The notes under the pieces were generated by a model. That model worked only from the letters and a program-made list of their open reading frames with translations, was not told the origin of the DNA and ran no database searches. DNA of 64,000 bases from a bacterium (GTDB lineage Bacteria; Cyanobacteriota; Vampirovibrionia; Gastranaerophilales; JAILCC01): NCBI GenBank assembly GCA_024680555.1, contig JAILCC010000013.1:1-64000 (forward strand), written 5' to 3'. The translations under genes and the position numbers were made by a program. Positions 42,730-62,785 of this stretch are shown here, in pieces. Position 1 is the stretch's first letter; every line of letters begins with the position of its first letter.

Positions 42730-42780
42730 AGCCAACCTTCCTTTAATACATTCTAGCATGCATATAATTAAAAATAAAAA

Positions 42781-42840: not shown

Positions 42841-43188
42841 TTACGCTATAAGCGCAATCTCCTCGTGAATTGAACTCTCTTCTTCTCCCTCGTTGTGGAT
42901 AATATCCAATATCAAACAACTGTTTTCAAGTATTTTTTGAACGTTGTCTTTTACGTTGAAAAGTTTTATGTGAACGTTGTTTGTAATGGATATCTTTTGA
43001 ACCGTTCTTAATATTCCGAAACCGATAATATCAATATTTTCTATTTCGGAAAAATCAATAGAAACGCTTGTTACGCCGTTTTCTACGTTATGCTTTACCT
43101 CGTTTACCAGTTCATTTACGTGACTGCGCATAAAGATGTCTTTGTGCGGTTTTATCGTCGTTGAATGATTTCTGTTGAGGTTATTCAT
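42841..43188 (-). CDS. STAS-domain protein (anti-sigma antagonist-like)
   Basis: A 115-residue protein with the STAS fold pattern: HVNELVNEVKHNVENGVTSVSIDFSEIENIDIIGFGILRTVQKIS..NVHIKLFNVKDNVQKILENS. In SpoIIAA-type antagonists the loop after the central strand carries D-S/T-S-G with a phosphorylated serine. Here the loop reads IENIDIIGFGIL, with no serine or threonine, so it may work without phosphorylation or bind lipid/partner proteins like other STAS subfamilies. AGGGAAGAG precedes the ATG. It is divergent from the giant pilin-like gene and has its own terminator. Partner unknown. Confidence 0.75.
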   Translation of the reverse strand: MNNLNRNHSTTIKPHKDIFMRSHVNELVNEVKHNVENGVTSVSIDFSEIENIDIIGFGILRTVQKISITNNVHIKLFNVKDNVQKILENSCLILDIIHNEGEEESSIHEEIALIA

Positions 43189-43543
43189 CTCTTCCCTTTA
43201 CAAAATTGTGTAAAATTCGTGTCCCCGTGACAATAAAAATCTTATCAAATTTGCCATGATTGCACAAATTTATTCAAAAATTATTTTAGACCATGCCCCC
43301 TATCTCTATTGAAACATGCCCGAAAGTCCATGGTGGCATGGGTTTCCATGAATTATTAAAAAATATAATAATGTTAACAAATGTTAACAACAATGAATAT
43401 TAAGCAGAACATTTAGTTTTGTAAAAAATATTTAAGTTATGTAAATAAAACTTAATAAGTGCTAAACAAATTGTGGCATGATTTGGCTAAAAGTAGTATA
43501 ATTATAATTGTACGTACGTTATTACAGAACCGGGTAATTGAAT
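43189..43543 (+). promoter_or_regulatory. Regulatory gap before the giant pilin-like gene
   Basis: 355 nt without a gene. It holds CATGCC (43315-43320) / GGCATG (43335-43340) as an inverted repeat, an exact tandem decamer ATGTTAACAA twice at 43371-43390 (each with the palindrome GTTAAC), and a TATAAT (43497-43502) with a weak -35 about 41 nt before the ATG. The tandem decamers could be operator sites; nothing identifies the regulator. Confidence 0.4.
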
Positions 43544-46500
43544 ATGAGTAGAAAGCATGCATTTACTTTGCCTGAAGTATTAGCTTCTTTGGCAATTTTA
43601 GGAATTGTTGCGCTTCTTATGTTAGCTGCAATAAGAAGTGACGAAAATACAGCACAGCTGTATAATGCGCAGTATGATAAGGTATACGAAGATGTGTACT
43701 CCGCATCGAAAATGGTATTAACACTTGACAGAAATGATACCATGAAGTTTGGTGCCGAGGAGGGGTCTGATGGTCTTAGAGCCGCTTTTGCCGACCGCCT
43801 TGATATCGCAGACACATGGGATCATGGTACTGGTTGGGCTTCTAGCGAGAATGATGCGCTTTCTAAGATAGGTGTGGATAAGGGGGACATTTCCGGTGTC
43901 ACCCTCAGTAACGGTACGAGAATCGGTTTTGTAAGTGCGAATAACGTAAGTGGAGGTGCTTCCGGTTTAGCCTCTACTATGGGATGGAGTGCAGATAATT
44001 TGGTAGGTGCTTTGGCTGTGGACTTGAATGGCAGCAATCCAAGAAACAGCTTGGGCAATGATCAATCCCTCATACCCTTGTATGCAGACGGTGTAAAACA
44101 AGATGCAAGGTCCGGACAATTGGCTGCGGATACTACTCAGTCTACAGTTTCATGTACGGACTTGTCAGACGCAAGTAAGGATATTGAGTGTAATATAGTT
44201 GGGGGAGAATGTGTTTGTAGTTGTACAAGAGTAGAAACGTACAATGGTCAAGAATTTCCAATGGTTAATATAAACGGTCAGTGTAAAAGCGACTGTTTAA
44301 ATATTGCCAGAAACCCCGAAGTGAATAATGCCAATGCCATGGTAGATTATTCTCGTGAAGATGGGCGTTGTTATTCTTGTAAAATGAGTGTTGAACACGA
44401 ATGTAATGCTAAAAGTTGGATATTTAACGACGTATCATGCGAATGTATAGATCCGACGGCACCATGTGAAGAACCCGGATTTGAACGTAATCAAACAACA
44501 GGTGCATGCGAATGTGCTTTAACTCCCGAAACATGTGGTCTTGCTCCAGGAGAAGAACTTCCTGAAGGAATGTGCGCATGTTGCGGTGCAGGTCAACTTG
44601 TTGGTGTAAATGGTCTATGTGTTGATGAAAATGAAGTGTGCGGTGAGGATAAACATGCAAATGCAAACAGAACCGGTTGTGAATGTCTTGTTATGAATCA
44701 AGATTGCGCAAGCGGTTTTTATAATACAGACACTTGTTCATGCGAATGTGATGCTGATGCTGGACGAGTTTCAAATGATATGACTAACGGAGCGGCACAA
44801 TGTGCTTGCGAGGGAAATACTGCTTGTGCGGAACACAATGGTACGTATGATGATATAAATACTTGTTCTTGTAATTGTCCTGCTCCATATATTCCTAACG
44901 GTGCGGTTGGTGCAGCTGCAGCTTGTGTTTGTAGTATGACTGCAAGCGGTTGTGCTGCGCAAAACGGTATTTTAAATGATATGGAATGTAAGTGTGAACC
45001 TTGTCCTGTCGGCACTTATCCTGAAAACGGCAATTGCGTAAAGGGTGATAATAATAGCGGCGACAATGGCAACGGAAATGGTGACAATGGTGATCAGCCC
45101 GGCACAGGCGGAGGCGGTGGAACATATTTGCCGGGAGTCTGCCCGACTAAATTTGGAATGAGCTTTGAAATAAAGGATGTAATAACCAATGTACCCAGAT
45201 GGGATGCGCCATATTACTGCTCAGAAAGAGGCTACAAACTTATAACAGATACACAACTTCTTGAATTAAGAAAAAGATTATTTAACGGTTGTTCTGTTTC
45301 TTCCGGCAGTCATTCAAATAAAACTGATACGGTTTATTCTTGTCCTTCCGGTTCAATAGATAATTCTTTATTAGAAAAATTGTCATTTGATGATGCTCAA
45401 ATCAATGGCAAATATTATATGTTATCTTCGGAAAGATATCAGTATGATGAATGTGAGGATTGTTATTGGGACGATACTATGTCTGGTTCAATTTCCCATT
45501 CAGACAATGAGTTTCATTATTCTCCCTACGATTCATACTATGAGCGATATTATTATGGAGACGATGATGAATATTACTGGGAGGAAGAAGTAGGTGTAGC
45601 TATATGCGTGGAAGATGGTGATTTCCCCCATGAAGTGAAAAATAATGTATGCTTATACACTCCTGCTGCAAATTGTAATGCCGGTGATATCATAATTAGT
45701 GATGCAAGGGGTTTATATAACATCAGAAATAACCTCTCTGCAAATTATTGTTTGGTTGCAGACATCGATTTGGCTGCACAAAAGAATAAAATTCCCAAGT
45801 ATGATGAAGCAAAAGGTTGGGATCCGATAGAAGGTCCGCCTGAATACTGTTACTATTACGATGAATTTAATTATTGCGAAGCTTATTATGGATTTAGCGG
45901 TACATTTAACGGTAACGGACATACTATAAGCAATTTATACATAAACCGTCCTGATGAACTTGAAACAGGCTTGTTTGGATATGTAGCACGCGGTGCAACG
46001 ATTAAAAATCTTGGTCTTGCAAATGTTAATGTTTCCGGTGCAAGGAACACAGGTGCATTGGCAGGAAACAACTATGGTAATATTACAAATACGTATGTTA
46101 CCGGTAAAGTTGTCGGTTCACGTCCTTATATAGGCGGACTTGTTGGTTCAAACGGCGGAGTTATTAACAGTTCCGTTTCCGCTGCGAATGTTGAAAGTGA
46201 TACTGTTGCTACCGGCGGTATTGTCGGAAGTAACTTTGGCGGAGAAACTATGAACTCATATTTCACCGGAACCGTAACAAGTACAAGCTGTTGGATTGGC
46301 GGTGTTGCCGGAGATGGTTATTATGGCGAATTGAAAAATAGTTATTCAATTGGTCATGTGTATGCTGATTGTGATGCCGGTGGCGTACAAGGTTTAGTTA
46401 CCGGTGCAACAGTTAAAGATTCTTATTCGGATTCTACAGTACAAAATATTCCGGCTATAGGTACAAACAATGGAAGTGTTACAAATGTAAGAGCTCTTAC

Positions 46501-49500
46501 AACTTCGCAAATGAAAGTTTCTAAGACTTCCAGAAATATTTATAAGAACTGGCCGTCAGATATTTGGTGCTTTAATTGCGGCAACTATCCGGTATTAAAA
46601 GATATGCCGAAAGGAACACCTCAGCCTTCCGGTGCAAATTCTTGCGGAAGAGCATGTTCTTGTCCTGCAGCTTCAACAGGTACTTATGATGAGTGTACAT
46701 GCATAGGAGGTGCGCCTCTATACGAATCATTAGACAATATTTGTCAAACTTGTGCTCAAGCGACAAGTGATGCAACACCATATTGGAATAGTGAAACCCA
46801 CCAATGTGAAGCGTGTCCTGCAGATAAACCATACTATAACGGATATGGTTGTTTGCCTTGTAGTGATACTGCATTTCCTATACAACAGGGTAACAAGTGC
46901 GTATCTTGCGCATCTGTTGACAGTACAAAACCATATTGGAACGGAACAGAATGTATAGCGTGTCCTAATGGAATGGATTGCAGTAATCCTGTAAATCCGG
47001 ATAAGCCTGAATGTCCTGCTATATATAAATTAACAGGTCCTACTGAGGAAGGCAATTGCGGTGCAGGTTATATTGCTATAACGACACCTGAGCAGCTTGC
47101 CCAAATAGGTAATTGCTATCCATCAAATGCAAATTATTGTTTGATGAATAGTATAGATTTGTCTAATTTCGGTTCAACATATGATGGTGGCGAAGGATGG
47201 CTGCCTATTTCAGGCTATCAAGGTACATTCGATGGTAATGGTCATGCCATTAAAAATTTGTATATGAACAGACATAATATAAATGGACCATTCTATGGCC
47301 TTTTTGAACAATTAAGAAATAGTACTATTAAGAATTTATCCCTTCTCAATGAGTATATAAATATAATTGCTATTAAAACACGTAGTAACAGTGTTGGCTA
47401 TATTGGTGGACTAGCAGGTTCTCTCAGTACCAATACTACTGTTGAAAGGGTATATATAGATGCAAATATAACATTAAACAGTATGGTTGGAGAACAACAG
47501 TCAATGGCTGGCGGTGTTGCTGCTGGTACCAGTTCTTCTACAGTTATTCGAAATGTACATACTGATGGCAGTGTAACAGTAAATAATACCGGTGGAGGGC
47601 AAAATTCATTTGCAGGTGGTATTATTGGGAATGATGGAGGAGCAAAGATATCAGATTGCCGTTCTGATGTAAATGTAACATCTGTTTCAAACGGACAAAA
47701 TGCAGTTGCCGGAGGTATTGCTGGATGGTATATTGCGGATAATTATTATAAATCGAAAATGGTCAATTGTATTGCAACAGGTAAAATAAATGGTAGATAT
47801 GGTGGCGGAGTAGTGGGTTACTATCAGGATTATGGTAGAAATGAAGGCGGGCATATAGAAAGTAGTCTTTATTTTGATACCCAAGCAACAGAAACAGCAA
47901 AAGGTACAGGAAACAATAAATCTGTTGATGCTATTACAGGACTCACTACAGCACAAAGCCACAAAACCAACCTTGACGATGTTTATACAGGTTGGTCAAC
48001 TACTGATTGGTGTTTCTCTTGCGGCGATTATCCTGTATTGAAAAATATGCCCGAGGGCGCTCCGGATGGCTCAGCTTGTGCATTGCAATGTTCAACATGT
48101 CCGAGTGACTCTTGGGATTACGGCAGAGATAGCAGCGGCAATCTCCAATGCGATTGTTCGTTCAATCCTCAAACGTATGATTATGTTTATAACGTTTCTT
48201 ATAACTCAACACTAAACAGATGTGATTTCTTCTGTCCTGCTGAGTCAACCGGAGAATATCCGGACTGTGATTGCTCGGCTAACACAGGAAATGAGTTATA
48301 TGATAATTATTATAATTATTGTACAAGTTGCTATAGCATGTACTGGCATTACAGTCCTCGTTGGAATAATGAAACTAAACAGTGTGAGGCTTGTCCGTCA
48401 GAAACTCCGTTCTTTAGCGAATGGGATAATGCATGTATAACTTGTGCAGATTATGATATCAATACGCCTGTTTGGGATAGTAACGAGTTCTATTGCAAAT
48501 CTTGTTATGATGCTGACAATTCAAGACCGTATTGGACAGGAACAGAGTGTGTATCTTGCGCTTCTGTTGATGCAAGCAAACCGGTATGGAATACTTCAAC
48601 CAATGAATGTACTACATGCGAACTTTCAACATTTGGTGAAAAATCATATTGGAACGGAACAGAGTGCGTATCTTGCGAAAGTGTCGATTCTACAAAAACG
48701 GCATGGAACGGAAGTGAATGCGTATCTTGTTCATCGTTGAATTCAAGTAAGCCCGGTTGGTTAATCAATGCGTGCGTAACTTGTCCGGATTCGTTGTATC
48801 CTGTACAACAAGGTGATGCTTGTGTATCATGTGCATCTATAGATTCGGCAACACCGTATTGGAACGGAACAGAATGCGTTGCATGTCTAGACGGTGTAAA
48901 TTGTTCAGGTGATGTTCCGAAACTTACCGGAGAAACACCTGAAGGCAATTGCGGCAGCGGTTATATTGCTATAACAAGTGTTGCTCAATTGGCTGTTATC
49001 GGCAGAGATAGCAGATATCCTTTGAATGGTAATTATTGCGTAATGAACGATATAGATATCAGCAGTTACTCTGAAAGTGCTGTTGGCGGTTGGTTGCCGA
49101 TAGGTACTTCAGTTGGTTCATTCACAGGTACTTTGGACGGTAACGGACATACAATTAACGGCTTATATATTTCAAGAGGTTATCCGGGCGTTGAATCTCA
49201 AGGTCTGATTGGAAAAACGCATAACGCAACCATTAAAAACATAAGACTTCAAAATGTAAATATTGCTGATGCTTGGGCATGGGTTGGTGGACTTGTCGGT
49301 TCATCAGATTCAACTACAAATATAATAAATTCATCAGTATCCGGTAGTATTACCGGTGAAGCTATTGTCGGCGGTTTGGTCGGCGGCGGATATTACAATA
49401 TCAAGAATTCATATTCAACAGGTACCGTTGTTGTTCACGGTTCTCGTGGTGGCGGTCTTGTTGGTGAATTGTCCGGTAATATAGAAAATTCATTCTCAAC

Positions 49501-52500
49501 TGCGAGCGTCACCGGTGTAGAATACCTCGGTGGACTTGTAGGTTGGTCAATATACAGACAAGCAACAATTAAAGATTCCTATGCGACAGGTGATATAACC
49601 GGTAACGCAGACTATGCATACGGCGACATTGGCGGTTTGGTCGGCTCTATACGTGATGGCGGTACTGTACAAAACTGCTATTCCACAGGAAGAGTTGTTG
49701 GCCAAAACTCTAACCAAGGCGGTTTGTTAGGTTATAAAAATGCTACTGTTACGAATTCATACTATGACAGAGAAACATCCGGTCAAACCGATACAGGCAA
49801 GGGTACACCTCTTACTACGGCTCAGATGAAATCTATCGCAGCAGACAATACTTATGTGGGTTGGTCTGAAGATGTATGGTGCTTCGGCTGCAGCGATTAT
49901 CCTCATCTTAAAAATATGCCGGAAGGCGCACCGGGTTGGACTTTGTGTGCAAGAAGCTGCGGCTCTTGTCCTTTAGGTTCAAAAGGTACATATCCTTCAT
50001 GCTCTTGCAGAGAAGGTTATGAATATAGCGAATTTGCTAATTTGTGCGCAGTTCCTTGTCCTAACAACGGTTCTATATACGATTATCCGAATTGTGATTG
50101 TTCTGGTGAAGACGGACATAACAGATATGATTACGTTACAAATACTTGCGTAAGTTGTGCTGTTTATGGTTCAGACTTACCAATTTGGAACGGCAGCGAA
50201 TGTATTTCTTGCGCAAGTGCAACAAGCGCATTAACTCCGTACTGGGATGGTACTCAATGTACAAATGTTCCCGATGGAATGGAATATGATGAAGAAGACG
50301 ATATAATCAGATTGACTGCTCCTACAGACAAAGGCTATTGTGATGCGGGATATATAGCTATATTCTCTGCTCATCAAATGGCTCTAATCGGTCAAGACAG
50401 CAGATATTCTCTATCAGATAGATATTGTCTGATGAACGATATCAACCTTGGCAACTATTCATCCAATACTGCTAACGGTTGGTTGCCTATAGGTGATAAT
50501 AAGAATGCGTTTACCGGTACTTTTGACGGTAATATGCAAACTATAAGCGGTTTGTTCATAAATCGTCCGTCTACCGGATATAATGGTTTGTTCGGCCGCA
50601 CGAATAATGCTACATTAAAAAATGTTATTATAGCAAATGCGGATTTAGCAAGTGTGGGCGGCACCTATTCAGGAATACTTGTTGGCTATAGCACTGGCGG
50701 CAGTATCAATAACGTAGGAACTTCCGGTTCTATAGCGGGTGCAGGTTCTTATGTTGGTGGTCTCGTGGGAGCTACATCCAATACGTCAATACAAAAGTCA
50801 TACTCTACGGCAAATGTTACCGGCGGAACTTATGTCGGTGGTTTGATAGGTAGGTATGTTTCTAACAGTATAAAATACTGTTATGCTACAGGTGATGTCG
50901 AAGGTATAAATCAAGTTGGCGGTTTTGTGGGTGATTTATCGGGACATGCATATTATTGTTACGCATTAGGTGATGTAGTAGCTACCGGAAATAGTGCAAT
51001 AGCTGGCGGCTTTGCCGGAACATTAGGATGGAATCTGTACGATTCATTTGCTCGAGGCAATGTTACTGTTTTGGGTACCGGTGCAAATACACAAGCAGGC
51101 GGATTGGCGGGTCAACAGTCAACTCAAAACGGTTCTGTATCTCGTTCTTATTCTACCGGTACGGTTATGGCTATAGAAGGAAAAATCGGTGCGTTTATTG
51201 GTAATAGACTAACCAATACAAATATAACAGCTAATACTGCTAACTATTATAATTCTGATACTGCAGGAGACCTTCCTGGTATTGGAGATGGTAATACAGA
51301 TACAATAGAAGTGACAGGCGTTCCCAGCGGCGTTTTGATGTCATCCAAAAACCCTGTAAACTTGTATTCGTCTTGGAATGCAAATATTTGGTGCTTCAAT
51401 TGCGGAGCTTATCCTGTTCTTAAAGATATGCCTGACGGGGCATTTAGTGCTTCAAGCTGCGGAGCGGTATGCGCATGCCCTACAGAGGCAACCGGTGAAT
51501 ATGGTAATAGCGACGGTTCAGCATATCCTACTTGTAGATGCTCAGGTATAAACAAAAAATATGTATATGATGAATGGAATAACATTTGTCAGTCTTGTGC
51601 TGAAATAAATGCAGAAAAACCATATTGGACAGGCACAATATGTTCAATCTCTTGTGAAAATCAATTGTACCCTGTACAAGGTGAAGATGAGTGTCATTAT
51701 TGCAGCTATGTTGATGAAAATAAACCGTACTACGATGGTGCGGAATGTAAAGAAACTCCTGACAATATGGATTGTACAGAAAAAGGTACTTGTACTCTCA
51801 AGGGTGAGACATCCGAAGGCAATTGCGGAGAAGGGTATATTGCTATAACATATCCTGCTCAACTACATGCAATCGGCAGACACGAAGATTATCCGTTGGA
51901 TGCTAACTATTGTTTAATGAAGAATATTGACCTCTCTGCTTATTCATCAGGCGAAGGTTGGGAACCAATCGGTACTTCAGCGCAAGCATTTACCGGTATA
52001 TTTGACGGTAACGGAAAAGAAATTTCAAATCTCCATATAAACAGACCAAATGTTGATTATCAAGGTTTGTTCGGAAGAGTTCAAAGAGCAACAATATCAA
52101 ATCTCGGATTGGTTAATGTAGATGTTACAGGTAGAAGTTATGTGGGCGGTATTTCCGGTGGTAACCCACGTTCTGTTACTGACGATGGTATAAAAATTGA
52201 CAAATGCTATGCTACAGGTACGGTCAATGGCTCTTCCTATGTAGGTGGTTTGCTAGGTCAAGGTTACGGTACATTTGTTAAGATTTCAAATTCATATTTT
52301 GATGGTACTGTTTCTGGGGGTAGTAATGTCGGAGGTATTGCTGGTGTATCGTTCTATTATTCTAATACTAGTACTGTTGAAAAATGTTATGCCTTAGGTT
52401 CAGTAAGTGGTAGTAATTATGTTGGGGGTATAACCGGCTCTGGTAATCTTGCAAGAACTTTCTTCTCTGGTTCAGTAAGAGGTAGTAATTATGTGGGTGG

Positions 52501-55500
52501 GGTTTCTGGATATGGTTATGCTAGTTCTTCATATGCTTCAGGTTCAGTTAGCGGAAATAATTATGTTGGCGGAATTTCCGGTATATTGAACTTTACGTAT
52601 GTAGTGGTATCCGGTTCTTATGCTGCAGCACGAGTTACAGGTACAGGCAGTAGTGTCGGAGGTCTTGTTGGATTTTCTTATGCTTCGCTTCCTATTTCTG
52701 CTTCATACTTCAATACCGATACAACAAATCAAACAAAGCCTATAGGTAACTCCAATGAAGAAAAATATAATTATGCAGCTGTTAATACAGAACAAATGTA
52801 TTCTATACCAAACGAAACGGTTTATAATGGTTGGTCTGAAGCTATATGGTGTTTCTTCTGCGGTGATTACCCTGTACTGAAAGGTATGCCTGAGGGTGCG
52901 CCTGATGTATCATATTGTGCATTTGATTGCGAAAATTGCCCGCCTCATTCAAACGGTGATTATCCTTCATGCTCATGTACTGATGACAACGCTGTATATA
53001 GTCAGGTTAAAAACCAATGTATATATTCTTGTCCCGAAAATATGGACGGGAAATATCCTAAGTGCGATTGCTCCTCTAATGCGGGACATGAAGCATATAA
53101 TGTTGCTGAAAATATTTGTGTAAATTGCGCATCTTTGGATCCGACAACACCTGTATGGAACGGCAACGCTTGTGTTTCTTGTACTCAAGCAACAAGCAGC
53201 GATACTCCTTATTGGAACGGTTCAACATGTTCAGCATGTCCTAACGGATATGAATGTTCTGAAGTTATAAAACTTACCGGTCCGACGGAAAAAGGCTATT
53301 GCGATGCAGGTTATATAGCAATATTCTCACCTGAACAATTGCTCAAGATAGGTATTGATGAACATTATCCGCTTGATGCTAACTATTGCTTGATGAACAA
53401 TATTAACGCATCTCGTGGTAGTTTTGGTCATCAATTTATTAAAGGTTGGACTCCGATTGGTACATACACGGATAAAGAAGATAATAACCCATTCACAGGT
53501 ATATTTGATGGTAACGGCAACGAAATAACAAATCTCTATATAAGAAATAGCGGTTTGGAACGAGTAGGCTTGTTCGGCTATATTACGGGTACTGTTAAAA
53601 ACCTTGGTATAGTCAATGCAGCTATATCCAATGACAAACCTTTTGCAGGTATTCTTGCAGGTCAGGCAGGAGATGATTCTGTCATTGAGAATGTGTATGT
53701 CAAAGGTACTATTAAAGCTCCATTCTTTGTTGGCGGTATGATTGGTTACGGTAAAATTAAGTCAATGAAGGATTCCTATGCTGAAGTAGATGTTACTGCT
53801 ACTCAAAATAGTACACAAGCGATACAAAATCACTGGCATAGTTATACGAGAGATGATGGTACTGGCGGCTTGATTGGCTTTGCTTTGCCTTCTTCCAGTA
53901 ACACTTATGCTTCCAGTGTTGTTATTCAAAATGTTCATGTTTCCGGAAATGTAAAAGGTACCATAAATGTCGGCGGTTTGATAGGTTATGGTAAAATCGG
54001 CATAAAAGATTCTTATACTACTTGTGATGTTCAAGGTACGTCTACTGTCGGCGGATTTATAGGTAATAGACCTAGTGGTTCGAGCGGTTCTGTAACCAAT
54101 TGCCATGCTACAGGTAATGTAAAATCAACCGGCGGGTATGTTGGTGGCTTTGTCGGATACACTTCTTGGGGCTCTGTGTCTAATTGTTATGCTACCGGTG
54201 ATGTAGAAGGTACAGATGGCGATGTCGGTGGTTTTGCCGGTTTAGGACAAAGCATTAGCAGTTCATACGCTACCGGTAATGTTACAGGTAAAGGCTCAAA
54301 TGTATCAACCGGAGGTTTTGCCGGTGCTACGACTATTTCCAGTGGTGCAAGTAAATGTTTCTCAACCGGAAATGTAGTTTCCTCAGGTAAATCTGCCGGA
54401 GGTTTTGCGGGAAGAATTATACCTGAACCAAATACATCTTATTCAACATCCAGTTTTGATAGCTTTGCCGGAGTTGTAAATTGTTATTCAACAGGTGATA
54501 TAGATTCTACGGCTACATATACCGGTGGTTTTGCAGGCACTACATTTAAGTCTGGTGTAAAATACAGCTATACATTAAGTCATATAAATTCTCACGGAGA
54601 ATATGTCGGAGGATTCTTCGGTTTGCGTGGTGATGCAGAAACAGGAGAATACCAAGGCGGTTGTGCTGCAGTATTCTATAATATCGATAATACAGGTGTT
54701 GTTCCTGCAGTTGCTATAGGTAGTGACGATAATGTATATGGCTTACCTACAGAAAACTTGATGGTTTCAAAGAATAATTATAACCAATACAGTACTTGGG
54801 ATAGCGGTGTTTGGTGCTTCAATTGCGGGGCATATCCTCAACTGAAAGGTATGCCTGCAGGTGCCCCGAGTACAACGTCTTGCGACTTTGCTTGTTCTTG
54901 TCCTACAGGTTCAACAGGTGCTTACGGTTCATGTAATTGTGCTACTGCAGGAACGACTACACCATTCTATAATGTTGTAGATAACGTTTGCGAAGCTTGT
55001 AGCGTAATTCATCCGGAAGCAACATTCTGGAACGGTACAAGATGTGTACCTTCTTGCGCATCTACCATCAATCCTGTATATAGCGATGGCGAATGTATAA
55101 GTTGTACTCAAGCAACGAGTGCGGAAACACCATACTGGAACGGTGCGGAATGTACAGCTTGTCCTGATAATATGGATTGCAGCGGCAGTGTTCCGAAATT
55201 GACTGGTGAAACACCGGAAGGTAATTGCGGTGCAGGTTATATTGCAATTTCTTCAGCAGGTCAATTATCTCAAATCGGCGCTAACTCAAATTATCCTCTG
55301 AGCGCTAATTACTGCTTGCTGAACGATATCAGTTTGGCTGAATTCGGTTCTAACTTTGAAGGCGGAGCCGGTTGGGTACCTATCGGTAACTATGCTGAAA
55401 ATAAAAATAGCAAGTTTACAGGTACTTTTGACGGTAACGGAAAAGCAATAAGTGATATATATATATATAGACCTAAAAACATAGTAGGTATGTTTGCTAA

Positions 55501-58500
55501 CAGACCGACAGATTATCAAGGTTTGTTTGGCTATACTGAAAATGCTACAATCAAGAACCTGACACTTACTGGTGTAGATATTACCGCAAATAATACAATA
55601 GGTGCTATGGTTGCATATAAAAAAGGCGGTACTATTACCAATGTTAGCGTAAATGGTGTATTGAAAGGTAACAACAACATAGGTGGTGTTGCCGGAGTAA
55701 GCTATGGCGATATTACAAATGCAGATGTAGATATTGAAATAGGCGGAATAGCTGCTAATGCAACAGCTTCAAGCTACTGCGGTGCTATAGCCGGATATTT
55801 ATACGAAGGTACGATATCAGAATGTACTTCGTCCGGTACTATCAATGCTGCAGGTGGCGGTATTGCAGGTTATATCGGAACAAATGCTTCAATAACCAAC
55901 TCTCACACTTCAGCATATATTAAAGGCAGCGGCGGCGGCTTGGTATCCTATGTTGACAAAACATCCAGCGTATCGCATTCTTATGCTACAGGTGATGTTG
56001 CTAGCGGTGCAGGTTTTGTCCAAAGTAACTCTGGTAACATATCCTACTGCTACTCCACCGGTAAGGTTTCCAGTGGTGCTGGTTTTGCATACTATAACTA
56101 CGGTAAAATATCCTCTGCGTTTACGACAGGTGATGTCGTCGGTTCTAATACGGCAGGATTTGTATATTCCAACGGCGGTACTTATCAGTATTACGACGAA
56201 CAACAAAAGAAATATGTATACGCAGGCTACGATGCGGAAATTAAAGATTGTTATTGTACCGGCAGAGTAAAACTCACGAACAGCTATTACTATAATATGT
56301 CCAGCCTCTCATTAGGTGCTTTTGTCGGTCAAAATACTTATGGTGCTAAGATTACAAATTGTTATACTATAAGCAGATTCTCCGTAAACAATAACAGTGA
56401 TAACAGTCCTGAAGCTTCCGGCGGCTTTGTTGGAAGAATAGTCGGCAATTCATCTTATGGTTACGGAAATATTTCTGATTCATATTACAATACGGATTAT
56501 GTAAGCAAGAGACTCAATGCAATAGGCGTATATCCGGAAGAATATACAGAAACGGTTATAGGCCTGACATCTACTCAAATGTCAGTACCAAAGAAACCAA
56601 ACAATCCATACGCAAATTGGGATGATAGCAAGTGGTGCTTTAATTGCGGAACATTCCCGCAACTTAAAGGTATGCCGGAAGGCGCACCGGCTGCTAATTC
56701 TTGCGGCACGAATTGTGCTTGTCCTGACGGTTCAACCGGAACGTACAGTTCTTGCGAATGTACAAGAAACAGGGCTACATACGATCCGATGAGAAACGAA
56801 TGCTCATATAATTGTCCGTATGAAGCTGCTGAGGGCAGTGAATATCCGGCATGTGATTGTTCCGCTAATGGCGGCAGTGAGGCATTTGATTCGGTATTGA
56901 ATGTATGTGCAAGTTGCGATGCTATAAATAAGAAAACTCCGCTATGGAGTGCAGATAGAAATGAATGTATACCTTGTTCTTCTCAAAATGCTGCAACTCC
57001 TGCTTGGGATGATGTAAACGGAACATGTTCTACATGTATGTTGGCTACAGACGGTCAAAGACCGAAATTCAGAAAAGTTTGTCCTGCAGGAATGTATTTG
57101 TATGGTGATGAATGTCGTATCCCGAATACGCCTGTTTGTAAATTTACTGTCGGTTCGCTATGCTTAGTTGATAAAATGGCACGTTATGATGAAGAAACAA
57201 ATCCTGACGGATTTACACCAATTCTTTCTAGTACCGAAACTGAAGAAATGGTTGCTCAATATAACCTAGGTACTATTCATTCTGGAGAAGATGCAAATGA
57301 CTACTGGGCAGGTGCAATGAAGTACTGTCAAGACAGAGGTGCAAGACTTGCTACTCCGAATGAAATAATGGAATTGGCAAAAGCTATATACAACGAAGAA
57401 TTCAGCTTGTGCGAAGGCGAATGTACTGTTACAAATGAAAGCCACACAGGTGTACAAGGTGATGTTTGTTGTGCCGTAAGAAGGACTATTGACGGTATAG
57501 AAATGAGATGGGACGGTCAATATGAAGAAATGATTGATTGGCTCACTGACGGTATGTGGGAAAAGACATACGTTTGGACAAGTGCAGGTAACTCTGATTT
57601 GAGAGCATATAGAGTACTCTTCGATTATGATCGTTTCACTTGCTCTGCTTCCAATCGTACAGTTACCAACACAATGGCTCTTTGTGTAGCTGATGCAGGT
57701 ACATTTACTCAAGAACCTGAATATGGCTGCTATGCTTGCGGTACTGGTTCGCATTATGATGAAGCTACGGACAGATGTATTTGTAACGTCGGATATTATG
57801 GTGATGGTGATGTATGTATACCTTGCGGAACTAACGCATCTACCGCATCCATAGATTCTCCTGATTCCTCGTACTGTATGTGTAATCAAGGCTACTACGG
57901 CGATGGTTTGATTTGTGATGCTTGTCCGAGCAATTCATATTGCCCAGGTGGCGGAAATGAGCCTACATTCTGTGATGAAGGCACTTGGTACTATGAAGGA
58001 GAGTGCTTGCCTGTGTGCGGTGAAAATGCAGTTATTATAAACGGTGTATGCAAAGTTATTGCTCAAAGTGGTACTTGCGAAGCAGGTTATATCGGTATAA
58101 CTTCCGCACAAGACCTTGCTAAAATTGGTAATGACAGTAATTATCCGTTGAATGGTAACAATGCGAAGTATTGCTTGATGAATAATATAAGTCTGTCAGA
58201 ATATGCTTCTGGCGAAGGTTGGACTCCGATAGGTGATTATGCGACAGATACAAGTAATCAATTTAAAGGCATATTTGACGGTAATAATAAAGTAATATCA
58301 GGTTTAACCATAAACAGAGGTGATTCTAATTACCAAGGCTTGTTTGGATATGTAAGTGGCGGCGAAATAAGAAATCTTGGCGTCAATGTTAATAGAATTT
58401 CAGGCAAGTCGATTGTTGGTGGTATTGCTGGCGAAGTGGCCGGCAGGTCAATAAATCATTCATACGTAATAATTTCTGACAGTATCAATTCTGCAGGTTC

Positions 58501-61500
58501 CGATGTAGGTTCTCTTGTCGGTGGTATTGTTGGTCGTGCGTATGGAACCACTGTATCTAATTGCTATGTAAAAGGCGGAAGCATTATTGGTACATTTAAT
58601 GTCGGTGGTGCTATTGGTATTGGCGGTATATTGGAAAAATCTTATGTTGAGGATGTTGCCTTTCGTAGAGGTGGCGGTCTTTTTGGTTTTGCAGGAACAG
58701 TTCAAAACTGTTATGTCAAGAATTTAAGACGAGCAGCAGGTGCGACGGATACTATTTCCGGACTTGTTGATAATGCTCCTCAAAGTGCAGATATATCATC
58801 AACGTATGTTGTTTCTCCTTCCTCTACAATCAATTACATTGGTTCATATCAGCAAATTGGCTCGGCATCTGGTGTATATTTTGATAACACTGTTACTGGT
58901 GCAAAAAATGCATATTATGGTGGCGGAATATCAGGCATTACAGGAGTTTCTACCGAACAAATGACATCTATACAAAATGACACAGCATATACAGGTTGGT
59001 CAACTGATGTGTGGTGCTTCGAATGTGGTGATTATCCTGTTTTGAAAGATATGCCTGCAGGAGCTCCTGACGCAAAATACTGTGCAACTGCCGAACGTGG
59101 ATGCGAAACATGCAGTGGTGGTTCAGCCGGAGCTAATTGTCCTGATTGTGTATGTCCTTTGGCAAACGGCACATACTATGCAAACGCAAACCTTTGTGTA
59201 TATGTTTGTCCTCCGGGAGCAAGAGGAGACTATTCTGATTGCGATTGCACACCAAATACATCAACTCCGTATTATGATGAAACAACAAATACTTGTAGCA
59301 CATGTTTAGCAATGTATGGTGAACAAAAACCTGTATTGGCAGCAGAAAATACTTGTATCTCCTGCTATGAATCAAATCCGAATGCTCCGGCATGGAAAAA
59401 TGACCATTGTGTTACATGTTATGAAAAGAATAATAATAAGCCGTATTACTTCAATTCTTGTTGTAATGCTTGTGCAGATACAGATTTGCCATATCAAAAC
59501 GGTGAAGGATGTGAAAACTGTCCTTCAGATACTCCGTACTTTGATGGGGTTACTTGTTCTGCCGAACCGACAAATATTGAATTTAGCGACGGTGCGTGGA
59601 GATTGATGGCTTCTTTGGAAAATGGCAATTGCGGCGCAGGCTATATTGCAATAAGTACGGCTGATCAACTTGCAAAAATCGGCGTTCCCGATAGCTGCGG
59701 AATTGTTCAATATCCGTTGAACGATAAATATTGCTTGATGAATGATATCAACATATCAGGAAGAGCTTGGGTGCCGATAGCACAATATGGTGCAAGTACA
59801 AGCAACATATTTACCGGTACATTTGACGGTAATAATAAAACCATTAGCGGTTTAAGCGGCGGTGGCGCTTCTCAACACCGTGGTTTATTCGGCTATAACA
59901 ACGGTACTATTGTAAATCTTAGAGTTACCGGACCGGGTGTCGGCGCAGCTTGTTATGCAGGCGGTTTGGCTTCTATAAACGGTCCTAGCGGTGTAATCAG
60001 AAATTGTAGTGCAGATGTTCCTGTTTCTGCTTATGCAGGATGCGGTTGGATGGGTAATATCGCTATAGGCGGCTTAGTTGGTACATCTTATGGTATTATT
60101 GACCATTCATTCGCAACAGGTAGCGTAACACCTTCGACAACAGCCGGCGGCGGCTTGGTTGGTGTACAAAATAGCGGTACAATTTCCAACAGTTATGCAA
60201 CAGGTAGAGTTTATTCTGCGTATGATGCGCACTACTCTTTGAACCTTGGCGGTTTGGTCGCTATACAAGATGGTGGTACAATCACCAACTGTTATGCAAC
60301 GGGTGATGTAGAATACGGTACAAAAACAGGTAACATAAACCATACGGCAGGAAGTCTTGTTGGTGTATCCAGTGGCGTAATTTCTAAGAGCTATGGTTTG
60401 GGTAAAGTCCTTGGCGGCAGTAGAACATCTTATTCTAATTATGGCGGACTTGTCGGACGTAAATCAGGCACTGCGGTCAGTGCATCATACTATAATATGG
60501 AAACAACTCAACAATCTGACACCGGCAGGGGTATAGGACTTACTACCGCTCAAATGCAGGTATCAAAAGGTTCTTCTAACCCTTATGCAACATGGTCAAC
60601 AGATGATTGGTGCTTCAATGACGGAGCATATCCCGTATTGTTGAATATGCCGGCAGAGGCAGAACAAAGTGCAAGTACATCAGCTTGCGGAACAGTTTCA
60701 ACTTCCTGCCCTGCAAATTCAACAGGTACGTATGATAGTTGTATTTGTACAATTAAAAACCAAGAGTATGATGCAATTCAAAATTTGTGCATAAAGGTTT
60801 GTCCTGACGGTACAATAGGAACATATCCGGCATGTGTAGTTGATGAAACGGATGATGCTTGTCCTGTGTACGATGAAACAATAAATGATTGCTTATCGTG
60901 TGGAGAAGTATATGGCGATGCATTGTATGATGCCCCAATATGTCCTGAGGGAGCAGAACTGACTAAGAAAGGTTGCATAAAGACTGAAGTAGTTAACTGC
61001 GAATTCAAAATTGGTAATTTGTGCCTTGCAGAATTAGTTAGTAGCAATGCAAATAACTATATTAGTGTTAAGGATGAAACGGATGAATTCGTTGAAAAAT
61101 ATCACCTCGGAACGAAATATATAAATTCAAATGAAACTATAACAAAAGATTATTGGGCTTATGCAATGAAATATTGTCAAGATAGACAAATGAGATTGCC
61201 TACGACTGATGAACTTTTGCTTATTGCGGCTGAAGTGTACGATGCTCCGAATGGAGTCGGTTCACCAACTGCATGTGCTAATATAGTTAATAGTGATTAT
61301 GCTGGTGTTCAAAACGGATGTTCTGCTTCCACGGCTGCAACACGTCTTGATAATGAATTGGAAACATGGTTAAGAGGAAGTATATCTGAAGAATCAGCTT
61401 TCACAATCTTTTCAAATGCTGCTTCTACCAATACAAGTAATAATTCTACAGCGTACAGACGAGCGTTCTCATTGGCGTCTACTTCATCATCAAATGCGCT

Positions 61501-62581
61501 TAGAAGTACTATACGTGGTAATATACTTTGTGTAACAGATGTATCAAAGGAAAATACTTCATATAGTTATATGGTAACTCCTGTTTCACATTCCTGTACT
61601 CCTTGTGATGAAAATGCAACTTATGACTATTCTATACAAAAGTGTTTATGTAATGCCGGTTATTATGGTAACGGAGTTACATGCAGTACTTGCCCTGTGA
61701 ACGGATATTGTCCTGGCGGTAATGAGGATGATGTTTTATGCGATAATGATAGCATATATGATACTGAAGGCAATGTCTGCACGTCTTGTGATGCTTTGTA
61801 TGGTGAAGATGCTCCTGTTCTCGGTGCAACGGGTTGTATAAGTTGCGCAGCATACAATAGTGCTACACCTGTTTGGGATGATGTTTCAGGAACATGCGTA
61901 GCTGAAGGAAATGCTATTGATTTAAGTTTTGAAATCATAAATAACAAGGTTTATGCTCCCGGAGAATGCGAAGGTAGCGTATGTTTTGAAGATATGGGAA
62001 TGGGCGCAAATTACTGGATGGCGGCAAAAGATTTCTGTGCAGGTTTGGGCGGAAGACTTCCTAATGATATAGAAATGGCGGAAATCTCTGCTGCGATGTA
62101 TGCAGATAGCGAGTGTACTATAAGCGAAATTGGTGAATATAGCATGTGCAGTAATGATAGTGCTACAACAACAAGTGTATGGGGGCTTTTGGGTAGTACG
62201 GAAGCCGTATTGTGGACGAATGTTGCCGAGGGCAGAAATATTCACATTTGGACTTTCGGTTCTTGGGGCGACTCCAGAAATAACGCAAGTTCAGATAATT
62301 CTGACGTAAAAGCTATGTGTATAATAGCCAGTAATGAAGAACCGGACTGCGGTGAGTTGGAATGGTATGACAATGCAGGTGGCGCAAACAGGTATTATTA
62401 TACCGGTGATAATGCTGCCAGCGCGGCATGTAGAGCCAAAATTATCAGTATGCGAACGGATAGTTTCTGTACTTCAAGAGGTGACATTTGTTATGAAAAT
62501 GGCGGAGTTGATGGAAATTCTGTATTATGTTGTAACGGAAGTGCACCATGCGAGTGCCAAAATGGAGAATTGGCGTTTTAA
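43544..62581 (+). CDS. Giant pilin-anchored Cys-rich GLUG-repeat protein
   Basis: An uninterrupted frame of 6,345 residues. The start MSRKHAFTLPEVLASLAILGIVALLML is a type IV prepilin/pseudopilin signal: cleavage expected between A and F, Glu at +5, then a hydrophobic helix. Residues to about 190 look like a whole minor pilin, ending AVDLNGSNPRNSLGNDQ. Then come Cys-rich segments with a GDNGNGNGDNGD linker near 505. Nine GLUG-type modules follow (about residues 710-5700), each running GNCGxGYIAI, NYCLMNxIxLS, FDGNGxxI, GLFG, several GGLVG...YATG units and WCFxCGxYPVLK. They are separated by CxxC-rich linkers such as CVSCASVD..PYWNGTEC. Four modules near the start and end resemble DUF1566 (YWAGAMKYCQDRGARL). 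It is probably a surface adhesin exported by Sec and processed by prepilin peptidase. ATG at 43544 has only a weak GGGTAA site. Confidence 0.88.
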   Translation: MSRKHAFTLPEVLASLAILGIVALLMLAAIRSDENTAQLYNAQYDKVYEDVYSASKMVLTLDRNDTMKFGAEEGSDGLRAAFADRLDIADTWDHGTGWASSENDALSKIGVDKGDISGVTLSNGTRIGFVSANNVSGGASGLASTMGWSADNLVGALAVDLNGSNPRNSLGNDQSLIPLYADGVKQDARSGQLAADTTQSTVSCTDLSDASKDIECNIVGGECVCSCTRVETYNGQEFPMVNINGQCKSDCLNIARNPEVNNANAMVDYSREDGRCYSCKMSVEHECNAKSWIFNDVSCECIDPTAPCEEPGFERNQTTGACECALTPETCGLAPGEELPEGMCACCGAGQLVGVNGLCVDENEVCGEDKHANANRTGCECLVMNQDCASGFYNTDTCSCECDADAGRVSNDMTNGAAQCACEGNTACAEHNGTYDDINTCSCNCPAPYIPNGAVGAAAACVCSMTASGCAAQNGILNDMECKCEPCPVGTYPENGNCVKGDNNSGDNGNGNGDNGDQPGTGGGGGTYLPGVCPTKFGMSFEIKDVITNVPRWDAPYYCSERGYKLITDTQLLELRKRLFNGCSVSSGSHSNKTDTVYSCPSGSIDNSLLEKLSFDDAQINGKYYMLSSERYQYDECEDCYWDDTMSGSISHSDNEFHYSPYDSYYERYYYGDDDEYYWEEEVGVAICVEDGDFPHEVKNNVCLYTPAANCNAGDIIISDARGLYNIRNNLSANYCLVADIDLAAQKNKIPKYDEAKGWDPIEGPPEYCYYYDEFNYCEAYYGFSGTFNGNGHTISNLYINRPDELETGLFGYVARGATIKNLGLANVNVSGARNTGALAGNNYGNITNTYVTGKVVGSRPYIGGLVGSNGGVINSSVSAANVESDTVATGGIVGSNFGGETMNSYFTGTVTSTSCWIGGVAGDGYYGELKNSYSIGHVYADCDAGGVQGLVTGATVKDSYSDSTVQNIPAIGTNNGSVTNVRALTTSQMKVSKTSRNIYKNWPSDIWCFNCGNYPVLKDMPKGTPQPSGANSCGRACSCPAASTGTYDECTCIGGAPLYESLDNICQTCAQATSDATPYWNSETHQCEACPADKPYYNGYGCLPCSDTAFPIQQGNKCVSCASVDSTKPYWNGTECIACPNGMDCSNPVNPDKPECPAIYKLTGPTEEGNCGAGYIAITTPEQLAQIGNCYPSNANYCLMNSIDLSNFGSTYDGGEGWLPISGYQGTFDGNGHAIKNLYMNRHNINGPFYGLFEQLRNSTIKNLSLLNEYINIIAIKTRSNSVGYIGGLAGSLSTNTTVERVYIDANITLNSMVGEQQSMAGGVAAGTSSSTVIRNVHTDGSVTVNNTGGGQNSFAGGIIGNDGGAKISDCRSDVNVTSVSNGQNAVAGGIAGWYIADNYYKSKMVNCIATGKINGRYGGGVVGYYQDYGRNEGGHIESSLYFDTQATETAKGTGNNKSVDAITGLTTAQSHKTNLDDVYTGWSTTDWCFSCGDYPVLKNMPEGAPDGSACALQCSTCPSDSWDYGRDSSGNLQCDCSFNPQTYDYVYNVSYNSTLNRCDFFCPAESTGEYPDCDCSANTGNELYDNYYNYCTSCYSMYWHYSPRWNNETKQCEACPSETPFFSEWDNACITCADYDINTPVWDSNEFYCKSCYDADNSRPYWTGTECVSCASVDASKPVWNTSTNECTTCELSTFGEKSYWNGTECVSCESVDSTKTAWNGSECVSCSSLNSSKPGWLINACVTCPDSLYPVQQGDACVSCASIDSATPYWNGTECVACLDGVNCSGDVPKLTGETPEGNCGSGYIAITSVAQLAVIGRDSRYPLNGNYCVMNDIDISSYSESAVGGWLPIGTSVGSFTGTLDGNGHTINGLYISRGYPGVESQGLIGKTHNATIKNIRLQNVNIADAWAWVGGLVGSSDSTTNIINSSVSGSITGEAIVGGLVGGGYYNIKNSYSTGTVVVHGSRGGGLVGELSGNIENSFSTASVTGVEYLGGLVGWSIYRQATIKDSYATGDITGNADYAYGDIGGLVGSIRDGGTVQNCYSTGRVVGQNSNQGGLLGYKNATVTNSYYDRETSGQTDTGKGTPLTTAQMKSIAADNTYVGWSEDVWCFGCSDYPHLKNMPEGAPGWTLCARSCGSCPLGSKGTYPSCSCREGYEYSEFANLCAVPCPNNGSIYDYPNCDCSGEDGHNRYDYVTNTCVSCAVYGSDLPIWNGSECISCASATSALTPYWDGTQCTNVPDGMEYDEEDDIIRLTAPTDKGYCDAGYIAIFSAHQMALIGQDSRYSLSDRYCLMNDINLGNYSSNTANGWLPIGDNKNAFTGTFDGNMQTISGLFINRPSTGYNGLFGRTNNATLKNVIIANADLASVGGTYSGILVGYSTGGSINNVGTSGSIAGAGSYVGGLVGATSNTSIQKSYSTANVTGGTYVGGLIGRYVSNSIKYCYATGDVEGINQVGGFVGDLSGHAYYCYALGDVVATGNSAIAGGFAGTLGWNLYDSFARGNVTVLGTGANTQAGGLAGQQSTQNGSVSRSYSTGTVMAIEGKIGAFIGNRLTNTNITANTANYYNSDTAGDLPGIGDGNTDTIEVTGVPSGVLMSSKNPVNLYSSWNANIWCFNCGAYPVLKDMPDGAFSASSCGAVCACPTEATGEYGNSDGSAYPTCRCSGINKKYVYDEWNNICQSCAEINAEKPYWTGTICSISCENQLYPVQGEDECHYCSYVDENKPYYDGAECKETPDNMDCTEKGTCTLKGETSEGNCGEGYIAITYPAQLHAIGRHEDYPLDANYCLMKNIDLSAYSSGEGWEPIGTSAQAFTGIFDGNGKEISNLHINRPNVDYQGLFGRVQRATISNLGLVNVDVTGRSYVGGISGGNPRSVTDDGIKIDKCYATGTVNGSSYVGGLLGQGYGTFVKISNSYFDGTVSGGSNVGGIAGVSFYYSNTSTVEKCYALGSVSGSNYVGGITGSGNLARTFFSGSVRGSNYVGGVSGYGYASSSYASGSVSGNNYVGGISGILNFTYVVVSGSYAAARVTGTGSSVGGLVGFSYASLPISASYFNTDTTNQTKPIGNSNEEKYNYAAVNTEQMYSIPNETVYNGWSEAIWCFFCGDYPVLKGMPEGAPDVSYCAFDCENCPPHSNGDYPSCSCTDDNAVYSQVKNQCIYSCPENMDGKYPKCDCSSNAGHEAYNVAENICVNCASLDPTTPVWNGNACVSCTQATSSDTPYWNGSTCSACPNGYECSEVIKLTGPTEKGYCDAGYIAIFSPEQLLKIGIDEHYPLDANYCLMNNINASRGSFGHQFIKGWTPIGTYTDKEDNNPFTGIFDGNGNEITNLYIRNSGLERVGLFGYITGTVKNLGIVNAAISNDKPFAGILAGQAGDDSVIENVYVKGTIKAPFFVGGMIGYGKIKSMKDSYAEVDVTATQNSTQAIQNHWHSYTRDDGTGGLIGFALPSSSNTYASSVVIQNVHVSGNVKGTINVGGLIGYGKIGIKDSYTTCDVQGTSTVGGFIGNRPSGSSGSVTNCHATGNVKSTGGYVGGFVGYTSWGSVSNCYATGDVEGTDGDVGGFAGLGQSISSSYATGNVTGKGSNVSTGGFAGATTISSGASKCFSTGNVVSSGKSAGGFAGRIIPEPNTSYSTSSFDSFAGVVNCYSTGDIDSTATYTGGFAGTTFKSGVKYSYTLSHINSHGEYVGGFFGLRGDAETGEYQGGCAAVFYNIDNTGVVPAVAIGSDDNVYGLPTENLMVSKNNYNQYSTWDSGVWCFNCGAYPQLKGMPAGAPSTTSCDFACSCPTGSTGAYGSCNCATAGTTTPFYNVVDNVCEACSVIHPEATFWNGTRCVPSCASTINPVYSDGECISCTQATSAETPYWNGAECTACPDNMDCSGSVPKLTGETPEGNCGAGYIAISSAGQLSQIGANSNYPLSANYCLLNDISLAEFGSNFEGGAGWVPIGNYAENKNSKFTGTFDGNGKAISDIYIYRPKNIVGMFANRPTDYQGLFGYTENATIKNLTLTGVDITANNTIGAMVAYKKGGTITNVSVNGVLKGNNNIGGVAGVSYGDITNADVDIEIGGIAANATASSYCGAIAGYLYEGTISECTSSGTINAAGGGIAGYIGTNASITNSHTSAYIKGSGGGLVSYVDKTSSVSHSYATGDVASGAGFVQSNSGNISYCYSTGKVSSGAGFAYYNYGKISSAFTTGDVVGSNTAGFVYSNGGTYQYYDEQQKKYVYAGYDAEIKDCYCTGRVKLTNSYYYNMSSLSLGAFVGQNTYGAKITNCYTISRFSVNNNSDNSPEASGGFVGRIVGNSSYGYGNISDSYYNTDYVSKRLNAIGVYPEEYTETVIGLTSTQMSVPKKPNNPYANWDDSKWCFNCGTFPQLKGMPEGAPAANSCGTNCACPDGSTGTYSSCECTRNRATYDPMRNECSYNCPYEAAEGSEYPACDCSANGGSEAFDSVLNVCASCDAINKKTPLWSADRNECIPCSSQNAATPAWDDVNGTCSTCMLATDGQRPKFRKVCPAGMYLYGDECRIPNTPVCKFTVGSLCLVDKMARYDEETNPDGFTPILSSTETEEMVAQYNLGTIHSGEDANDYWAGAMKYCQDRGARLATPNEIMELAKAIYNEEFSLCEGECTVTNESHTGVQGDVCCAVRRTIDGIEMRWDGQYEEMIDWLTDGMWEKTYVWTSAGNSDLRAYRVLFDYDRFTCSASNRTVTNTMALCVADAGTFTQEPEYGCYACGTGSHYDEATDRCICNVGYYGDGDVCIPCGTNASTASIDSPDSSYCMCNQGYYGDGLICDACPSNSYCPGGGNEPTFCDEGTWYYEGECLPVCGENAVIINGVCKVIAQSGTCEAGYIGITSAQDLAKIGNDSNYPLNGNNAKYCLMNNISLSEYASGEGWTPIGDYATDTSNQFKGIFDGNNKVISGLTINRGDSNYQGLFGYVSGGEIRNLGVNVNRISGKSIVGGIAGEVAGRSINHSYVIISDSINSAGSDVGSLVGGIVGRAYGTTVSNCYVKGGSIIGTFNVGGAIGIGGILEKSYVEDVAFRRGGGLFGFAGTVQNCYVKNLRRAAGATDTISGLVDNAPQSADISSTYVVSPSSTINYIGSYQQIGSASGVYFDNTVTGAKNAYYGGGISGITGVSTEQMTSIQNDTAYTGWSTDVWCFECGDYPVLKDMPAGAPDAKYCATAERGCETCSGGSAGANCPDCVCPLANGTYYANANLCVYVCPPGARGDYSDCDCTPNTSTPYYDETTNTCSTCLAMYGEQKPVLAAENTCISCYESNPNAPAWKNDHCVTCYEKNNNKPYYFNSCCNACADTDLPYQNGEGCENCPSDTPYFDGVTCSAEPTNIEFSDGAWRLMASLENGNCGAGYIAISTADQLAKIGVPDSCGIVQYPLNDKYCLMNDINISGRAWVPIAQYGASTSNIFTGTFDGNNKTISGLSGGGASQHRGLFGYNNGTIVNLRVTGPGVGAACYAGGLASINGPSGVIRNCSADVPVSAYAGCGWMGNIAIGGLVGTSYGIIDHSFATGSVTPSTTAGGGLVGVQNSGTISNSYATGRVYSAYDAHYSLNLGGLVAIQDGGTITNCYATGDVEYGTKTGNINHTAGSLVGVSSGVISKSYGLGKVLGGSRTSYSNYGGLVGRKSGTAVSASYYNMETTQQSDTGRGIGLTTAQMQVSKGSSNPYATWSTDDWCFNDGAYPVLLNMPAEAEQSASTSACGTVSTSCPANSTGTYDSCICTIKNQEYDAIQNLCIKVCPDGTIGTYPACVVDETDDACPVYDETINDCLSCGEVYGDALYDAPICPEGAELTKKGCIKTEVVNCEFKIGNLCLAELVSSNANNYISVKDETDEFVEKYHLGTKYINSNETITKDYWAYAMKYCQDRQMRLPTTDELLLIAAEVYDAPNGVGSPTACANIVNSDYAGVQNGCSASTAATRLDNELETWLRGSISEESAFTIFSNAASTNTSNNSTAYRRAFSLASTSSSNALRSTIRGNILCVTDVSKENTSYSYMVTPVSHSCTPCDENATYDYSIQKCLCNAGYYGNGVTCSTCPVNGYCPGGNEDDVLCDNDSIYDTEGNVCTSCDALYGEDAPVLGATGCISCAAYNSATPVWDDVSGTCVAEGNAIDLSFEIINNKVYAPGECEGSVCFEDMGMGANYWMAAKDFCAGLGGRLPNDIEMAEISAAMYADSECTISEIGEYSMCSNDSATTTSVWGLLGSTEAVLWTNVAEGRNIHIWTFGSWGDSRNNASSDNSDVKAMCIIASNEEPDCGELEWYDNAGGANRYYYTGDNAASAACRAKIISMRTDSFCTSRGDICYENGGVDGNSVLCCNGSAPCECQNGELAF
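45671..60660 (+). repeat. Nine GLUG-type modules with Cys-rich linkers
   Basis: Modules begin near 45671, 47029, 48920, 50312, 51797, 53272, 55200, 58065 and 59605, and each ends at a WCFxCGxYP motif followed by PxGAP and a Cys-rich linker. They are about 1.0-1.6 kb long and differ mainly in the number of internal GGxxG...SYATGxV units; the sixth and seventh are longest. Similarity is strongest at the module edges, so expansion by recombination within the gene is likely. Confidence 0.8.
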
Positions 62582-62645: not shown

Positions 62646-62688
62646 TGACGTAGATTTTGTATGTTTTTGTCGGCGATGGGAGAAACAA

Positions 62689-62716
62689 AAAGACCTCTCC
62701 CATTGGAGAGGTCTTT
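62689..62716 (-). terminator. Terminator for the hydrogenase gene (bidirectional)
   Basis: Perfect 12-bp stem AAAGACCTCTCC/GGAGAGGTCTTT over a 4-nt loop, T-rich on both strands; it lies 70 nt after the hydrogenase stop codon. Confidence 0.88.
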
Positions 62717-62785
62717 TATTTGATTCTGCGGAAAACCGGACATGTTCAGATGCTGAAACAAGTTCAGCATGACATGTTATTTATT

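Follow-up and report, generated by a model that had tools for sequence, protein, structure and literature searches.

The giant frame and its N terminus

The window analysed here is the whole 64,000-nucleotide stretch of contig JAILCC010000013.1, from the genome of an uncultured, non-photosynthetic relative of cyanobacteria (G000; a MAG of 25 contigs, 87% complete). It contains a single open frame that starts with ATG at 43544 and runs without an internal stop, encoding 6,345 residues, 329 of them Cys (5.2%), with 59 CxxC motifs. The protein consists, in order, of a prepilin leader, a pilin domain of about 200 residues, a Cys-rich neck, nine GLUG modules with Cys-rich linkers, and lectin-like domains (Table 1). 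The gene appears to stand alone. The original prediction of a complete prepilin signal and a pilin-like domain leading into nine GLUG modules and CxxC-bearing linkers in one 19-kb frame was thus borne out. It had also counted two giant surface-type genes in the window; the other giant frame (13644-26861) has neither a pilin signal nor any Pfam match, and nothing was found that links the two. This second frame (4,405 residues, GTG start, no obvious signal) has, by eye, an RTX-like start followed by LY.DG.L-type and YD-like repeats.

Table 1. Features of the giant pilin locus, in window coordinates.
Feature	Position	Strand	Basis or remark
STAS-domain gene, divergent from the giant pilin gene	42841..43188	-	PF01740 above cut-off; beside the giant gene in three genomes
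Intergenic region, putative promoter/control region	43189..43543	.	DNA partly conserved in three genomes
Gene of the predicted giant modular type IV pilin, 6,345 aa	43544..62581	+	Single open frame; orthologs in G003 and G286
Predicted prepilin leader MSRKHA	43544..43561	+	PF07963 and TIGR02532 above cut-off; mature FTLPE, Glu5
Complete pilin module, predicted as a long alpha1 helix with a beta-sheet head	43562..44155	+	Aligned with 211-249 aa pilins; AlphaFold2 model
Cys-rich neck	44156..45148	+	Alignment of three orthologs
Lectin-like ("DUF1566-like") domain d1	45164..45643	+	By eye only; no Pfam or NCBIfam match
GLUG beta-solenoid module 1	45680..46612	+
GLUG module 2	47057..48055	+
GLUG module 3	48950..49924	+	AlphaFold2 model with the following linker: beta-solenoid
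GLUG module 4	50339..51436	+
GLUG module 5	51824..52894	+
GLUG module 6 (long)	53300..54859	+
GLUG module 7 (long)	55226..56680	+
Lectin-like ("DUF1566-like") domain d2, residues ~4516-4715	57089..57688	+	HMM of d2-d4
GLUG module 8	58076..59059	+
GLUG module 9	59630..60655	+
Lectin-like domain d3, residues ~5796-5995	60929..61528	+	HMM of d2-d4
Lectin-like domain d4, near the C terminus, residues ~6116-6290	61889..62413	+	HMM of d2-d4
Terminator-like hairpin, bidirectional, 3' of the giant pilin gene	62688..62717	.

The N terminus, a class III (prepilin) signal, reads MSRKHA followed by FTLPEVLASLAILGIVALLMLAAIR. It scored above the cut-offs of Pfam N_methyl (25.4 bits against 21.2, and 30.4 bits in the genome scan) and of the corresponding NCBIfam model (24.0 against 16.3). 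Cleavage of the leader is expected after Ala6, so that the predicted mature protein begins FTLPEVLASLAILG, has Glu at position 5 and opens with a hydrophobic alpha1. The classical Gly at position -1 is replaced by Ala, which occupies this position in 20 of the 31 prepilin-like N termini of the window genome; we therefore read it as a lineage trait and not as a defining failure. In a genome of another genus of the same family (G003), unlike the window genome, Gly is the commonest residue at -1 (10 of 17).

Over their whole length, residues 1 to about 200 could be aligned with stand-alone pilins of 211-249 residues from other genomes of the order, with which they share the head motif G..VD.N....N...D. 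The AlphaFold2 model of this module contains a helix at residues 9-61 plus a beta-sheet (pLDDT 73.6); a Foldseek search of the model against the PDB matched no solved pilin, and the alpha1 profile matched solved pilins at an E value of 7.5e-8. In the alignment of the pilin module and neck (residues 1-535), 31 Cys columns are invariant among the three orthologs described below, suggesting a conserved neck that is stabilised by disulfides.

GLUG modules and lectin-like domains

Pfam Glug, whose entry we take to be IPR011493, matched the middle third of the protein far above its cut-off (E = 9e-37). The nine modules start at residues 713, 1172, 1803, 2266, 2761, 3253, 3895, 4845 and 5363, are about 300-510 residues long and are 38-46% identical to module 5. 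They share the opening C..GYIAI...YCLMNDI and the ending WCF.CG.YPVLK.MP, a W-C-F...YP.LK.MP signature closing all nine. Structure prediction of a module with its linker had been proposed as a check of the original prediction, and the AlphaFold2 model of module 3 and the following linker is a beta-solenoid, a common ligand-presenting scaffold (pLDDT 79.9 overall, exceeding 90 in the larger part of the module). Among solved structures, it comes closest to the N-terminal regions of IgA1 proteases (3n6z, 6xja), with a profile E value of 5.6e-24 and a Foldseek E value of 3.4e-7 to 3n6z. Since the median motif spacing is 28.5 residues, the roughly 3,290 solenoid residues would make about 115 coils, which we estimate at approximately 55 nm with 0.48 nm per coil.

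The four domains d1-d4 are termed lectin-like here from their sequence pattern. They had originally been called DUF1566-like, an assignment that found no support, because the DUF1566 models of Pfam and NCBIfam did not match them even at E ≤ 1; one weak Pfam match to Xlink (E = 0.07) was obtained. Instead, d2-d4 are homologous to domains found at the C termini of ordinary pilins of 350-390 residues in the window genome, in which an HMM built from d2-d4 matched four pilins (L046, L045, L053 and L048; E values from 2e-11 to 2e-5). The giant pilin thus consists in part of domains that small pilins also carry.

Orthologs, neighbours and other appendage proteins

A search of related genomes for pilin-GLUG fusions, also proposed with the original prediction, yielded two orthologs. 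The one in G003 (contig CASDUJ010000034.1) is syntenic, 42% identical over residues 1-535 and has eight module starts in at least 4,695 residues, reaching the contig end. The other, in G286 (JAQVDK010000010.1), is 33% identical over the aligned N terminus and has ten module starts in at least 7,128 residues before being cut by the contig end. G286 carries the public label Eubacteriales (JAQVDK01, isolate STE_11; L121-L122, L140), which is probably wrong, because the cyanobacterial RpaB equivalog scored above its cut-off in both G286 and the window genome, placing both with Cyanobacteriota. A comparison of AtpB gave no information on the lineage. Vampirovibrionia/Gastranaerophilales would fit the gene content, the genome size and the set of pilins.

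The STAS proteins encoded beside the giant gene in G003 and G286 are 81.8% and 59.8% identical to that of the window, and the genes past the STAS gene in G286 differ from those in the window, indicating that the STAS-giant pair itself is the conserved unit. The intergenic DNA contains GCATG..TTTCCATG in all three genomes and TATAATTAT.ATTGT..ACGTACGTTATTA in two of them; Rfam gave nothing convincing on the 5' region of the giant gene. Speculatively, the giant pilin may be under a control of its own, as the conservation of the STAS gene and of the intergenic DNA would suggest. The STAS protein reads DIIGFG, identically in all three orthologs, at the position where SpoIIAA/RsbV-type proteins presumably have their phosphorylatable Ser. 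Past the STAS gene, the window has two related secreted-looking genes (40451-42759) without a Pfam family, which are kept beside the giant gene in G003 and were not found in the G286 stretch examined.

The window genome encodes a secretin (PilQ), a PilB-type ATPase and a PilC platform protein in one cluster (C9:19.4-24.4 kb), as well as a second T2SSE-family ATPase frame elsewhere. It has 27 N_methyl matches, including Cys-rich proteins of about 960 and about 2,000 residues, and a GLUG pilin of 938 residues was found apart from these. A prepilin peptidase (PF01478) was not found in this MAG, which may be a gap given its 87% completeness. The peptidase is encoded at L124:1434-2468 in G003, whose pilins have 1,276-2,402 residues, the gene of the 2,402-residue one lying about 4 kb from that of the peptidase. 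The Cys-rich pilins of 1,276-2,402 residues (L020, L112-L115, L123) have, as judged by eye, a common C-terminal EF-hand-like segment, GNGQIDNGKELFGDQ; the L113 pilin has eight ephrin-receptor-like Cys repeats. At L038:17904-18929 (C9, ~30.9-31.9 kb) of the window genome, a pilin N terminus (84 residues) is followed by a 253-residue frame with the shared lectin-like domain, possibly a frameshifted pilin gene or a sequencing error.

Searching the order for the GLUG module also revealed frames of about 2,000 to 11,061 residues in a large sister family (f2). We considered its giant frames (3,000-11,000 residues) as pilins and rejected this assignment, as their N termini are FliD-like or flagellin. 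FliD is the flagellar cap, a protein at the filament tip. In a complete 2,985-residue protein (G196), FliD_N and FliD_C flank GLUG; this is the one protein in which both domains were confirmed by Pfam, and the other inspected f2 frames, apart from a flagellin, are FliD-like at their ends by eye. In a frame of 8,905 residues, a 600-residue N-terminal piece did not match FliD_N, and the C-terminal piece matched Flagellin_IN. The giant FliD-like GLUG proteins comprise 2,425-11,061 residues (L100-L119; G169:C5, G216:C1, G107:C9, G175:C1, G285:C4, G196:C7 and others), and a flagellin of 2,083 residues (L119:5612-11860, G083:C16) has eight Glug stretches between Flagellin_N and Flagellin_C. The presence of GLUG in FliD and flagellin would be expected if the module serves contacts borne by appendages. 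Its occurrence on another filament, probably at the end, lends support to surface and tip display of the giant pilin, short of proof.

Proposed function and comparison with known systems

We consider it fairly probable that the gene product is a giant modular type IV pilin that presents an adhesive rod of great length on the pilus, probably at its tip. Display of an adhesin is its most likely role; surface location, tip position and ligand are what we infer. The alternatives, in order of falling likelihood, are that the prepilin signal is a mere anchor, that the protein belongs to a secretion or competence machine, that the ectodomain is an enzyme, and that the frame is an artefact.

Of these, the artefact and an M26 protease could be rejected. 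Fusion of several genes during assembly, which the original prediction had named as a finding that would overturn it, deserves a thought because the genome is a MAG of 25 contigs. However, the modules within the 6,345-codon frame are just 60-80% similar at the DNA level, and no exact repeat in the gene exceeds 23 bp, which makes short-read collapse or chimerism unlikely, and two independent orthologs have the same order of pilin, neck and modules. The fusion reading is accordingly extremely improbable, and chance or misassembly is ruled out for practical purposes. An M26-type peptidase, as the GLUG/M26 label would have it, could be argued from the Pfam Peptidase_M26_N match and from the profile and structure matches to IgA1 proteases. 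Yet M26_N and Glug are the only matches on the M26 side, the similarity is limited to the N-terminal beta-helical region, and no HExxH zinc site exists among the 6,345 residues, so that M26 catalysis is refuted by the missing metal site and we give an enzymatic ectodomain next to no credence.

The prepilin signal might act as a membrane anchor only, leaving the protein, cut or not, in the inner membrane with a periplasmic or surface-reaching ectodomain that never enters a pilus. This would fit a genome in which no prepilin peptidase was found and a giant gene that lies outside the PilQ/PilB/PilC cluster, and it would avoid exporting an extreme ectodomain that is hard to square with a secretin. 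We nevertheless regard it as unlikely, because the full pilin head, beyond alpha1, is conserved in three genomes, Glu5 is present and the pilus machinery exists. Less probable again is that the protein works in type II secretion or competence, as a pseudopilin-type component of a secretion or uptake machine with a periplasmic or tip rod for ligand capture, and is no surface adhesin. The single set of secretin, ATPase and platform could serve either role, and alpha1 weakly matches ComGE and GspI, but these matches span alpha1 alone and lie far under the family cut-offs, and the beta-solenoid and lectin-like modules, as well as GLUG on flagellar caps, indicate surface binding.

If the protein is a giant modular pilin, its precursor would be inserted by Sec and cleaved after Ala6 by the prepilin peptidase, and the Cys-rich ectodomain would fold and form disulfides outside the cytoplasm. 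The PilB/PilC motor would then add the pilin module to a type IV pilus, with export via PilQ; we know of no precedent for export of such a large protein through a secretin. The mature protein of roughly 700 kDa would project its rod chain (solenoid plus linkers) from the pilus, the tip being the likeliest site. There, the lectin-like domains and the faces of the solenoids might recognise glycans or proteins on a surface, a host or another microbe. In placing it at the tip we adopt the reasoning that has been applied to modular pilins generally (PMC8179133). Other pilus tips have a capping subunit without Glu5 (PMC10191384), and with its Glu5 the giant pilin is not obviously such a subunit.

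If displayed on pili, subunits some 30-fold longer than ordinary pilins would be a concrete test of the cargo size that the type IV pilus machine and secretin can export. The occurrence of one solenoid module on both pilins and flagellar caps suggests that evolution has commonly taken the route of attaching binding modules to the ends of filaments, and it offers a clue to how relatives of cyanobacteria in the gut and the environment, most of them uncultured, adhere to surfaces or partners. We put forward more tentatively, as an idea somewhat likelier to fail than to hold, that in this side branch of the cyanobacteria GLUG solenoids of one family are an interchangeable long-reach contact module at the ends of filaments unrelated to each other, namely type IV pili (giant pilins, more than 7,000 residues) and flagella (FliD-like caps, up to about 11,000 residues), and that the giant pilins are a conserved STAS-linked family with the largest pilins known.

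The original prediction of a new system did not stand. Modular pilins numbered more than 1,200 proteins in 264 architectures in 2021, with 860 residues as the extreme multi-domain case, and pilin plus IPR011493 (IPR012902-IPR011493) was among them, read there as M26 (PMC8179133); grafted adhesion modules have been proven by experiment elsewhere (PMC8179133; PMC9934059). The giant pilin, far above that extreme, fits the plan in that a pilin module comparable to small stand-alone pilins is followed by GLUG and lectin-like domains; smaller Cys-rich pilins (938, ~960 and ~2,000 residues) are encoded in the window genome as well. As two relatives carry the gene too, it is probably a real long-reach surface adhesin on the modular-pilin plan. 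New here are the scale, the STAS-linked family in three genomes, the lectin-like domains common to small pilins and the GLUG modules common to flagellar caps; we found no earlier description of giant pilins, GLUG adhesins or FliD with GLUG in the open-licence literature.

Among characterised systems, Streptococcus sanguinis PilB and PilC have the same small N-terminal pilin module, large C-terminal graft and Glu5, and adhesion has been shown for them (PMC8179133, PMC9934059); compared with PilB (~50 kDa), the giant pilin has 6,345 residues, nine solenoids with Cys-rich linkers, a secretin lineage and a conserved STAS neighbour. It would work like the PilC/PilY1 tip adhesins of type IVa pili, as a large modular adhesin at the tip (PMC8179133, PMC10191384), except that the giant protein is itself a pilin, and a Pfam scan of its 6,345 residues found no PilY1 C-terminal beta-propeller (IPR008707). 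The minor-pilin tips of Tad pili (KilN, TadG; PMC12075869) likewise are large minor pilins whose C-terminal modular domains functionalise the tip, but they belong to another pilus type (Tad/T4c), are dimeric or trimeric and are far smaller. IgA1 proteases (3n6z, 6xja, 6xjb, 7uvk) share the homologous beta-helical GLUG/M26_N region; the giant pilin differs from them in lacking the catalytic HExxH, in its ninefold module, in the Cys-rich context and in the pilin carrier. In the GLUG-bearing FliD and flagellin proteins of the order, modules of this family are likewise carried by a protein of an appendage; unlike the giant pilin, these carriers are flagellar and Cys-poor (0-0.6% Cys, and 1.5% in the flagellin).
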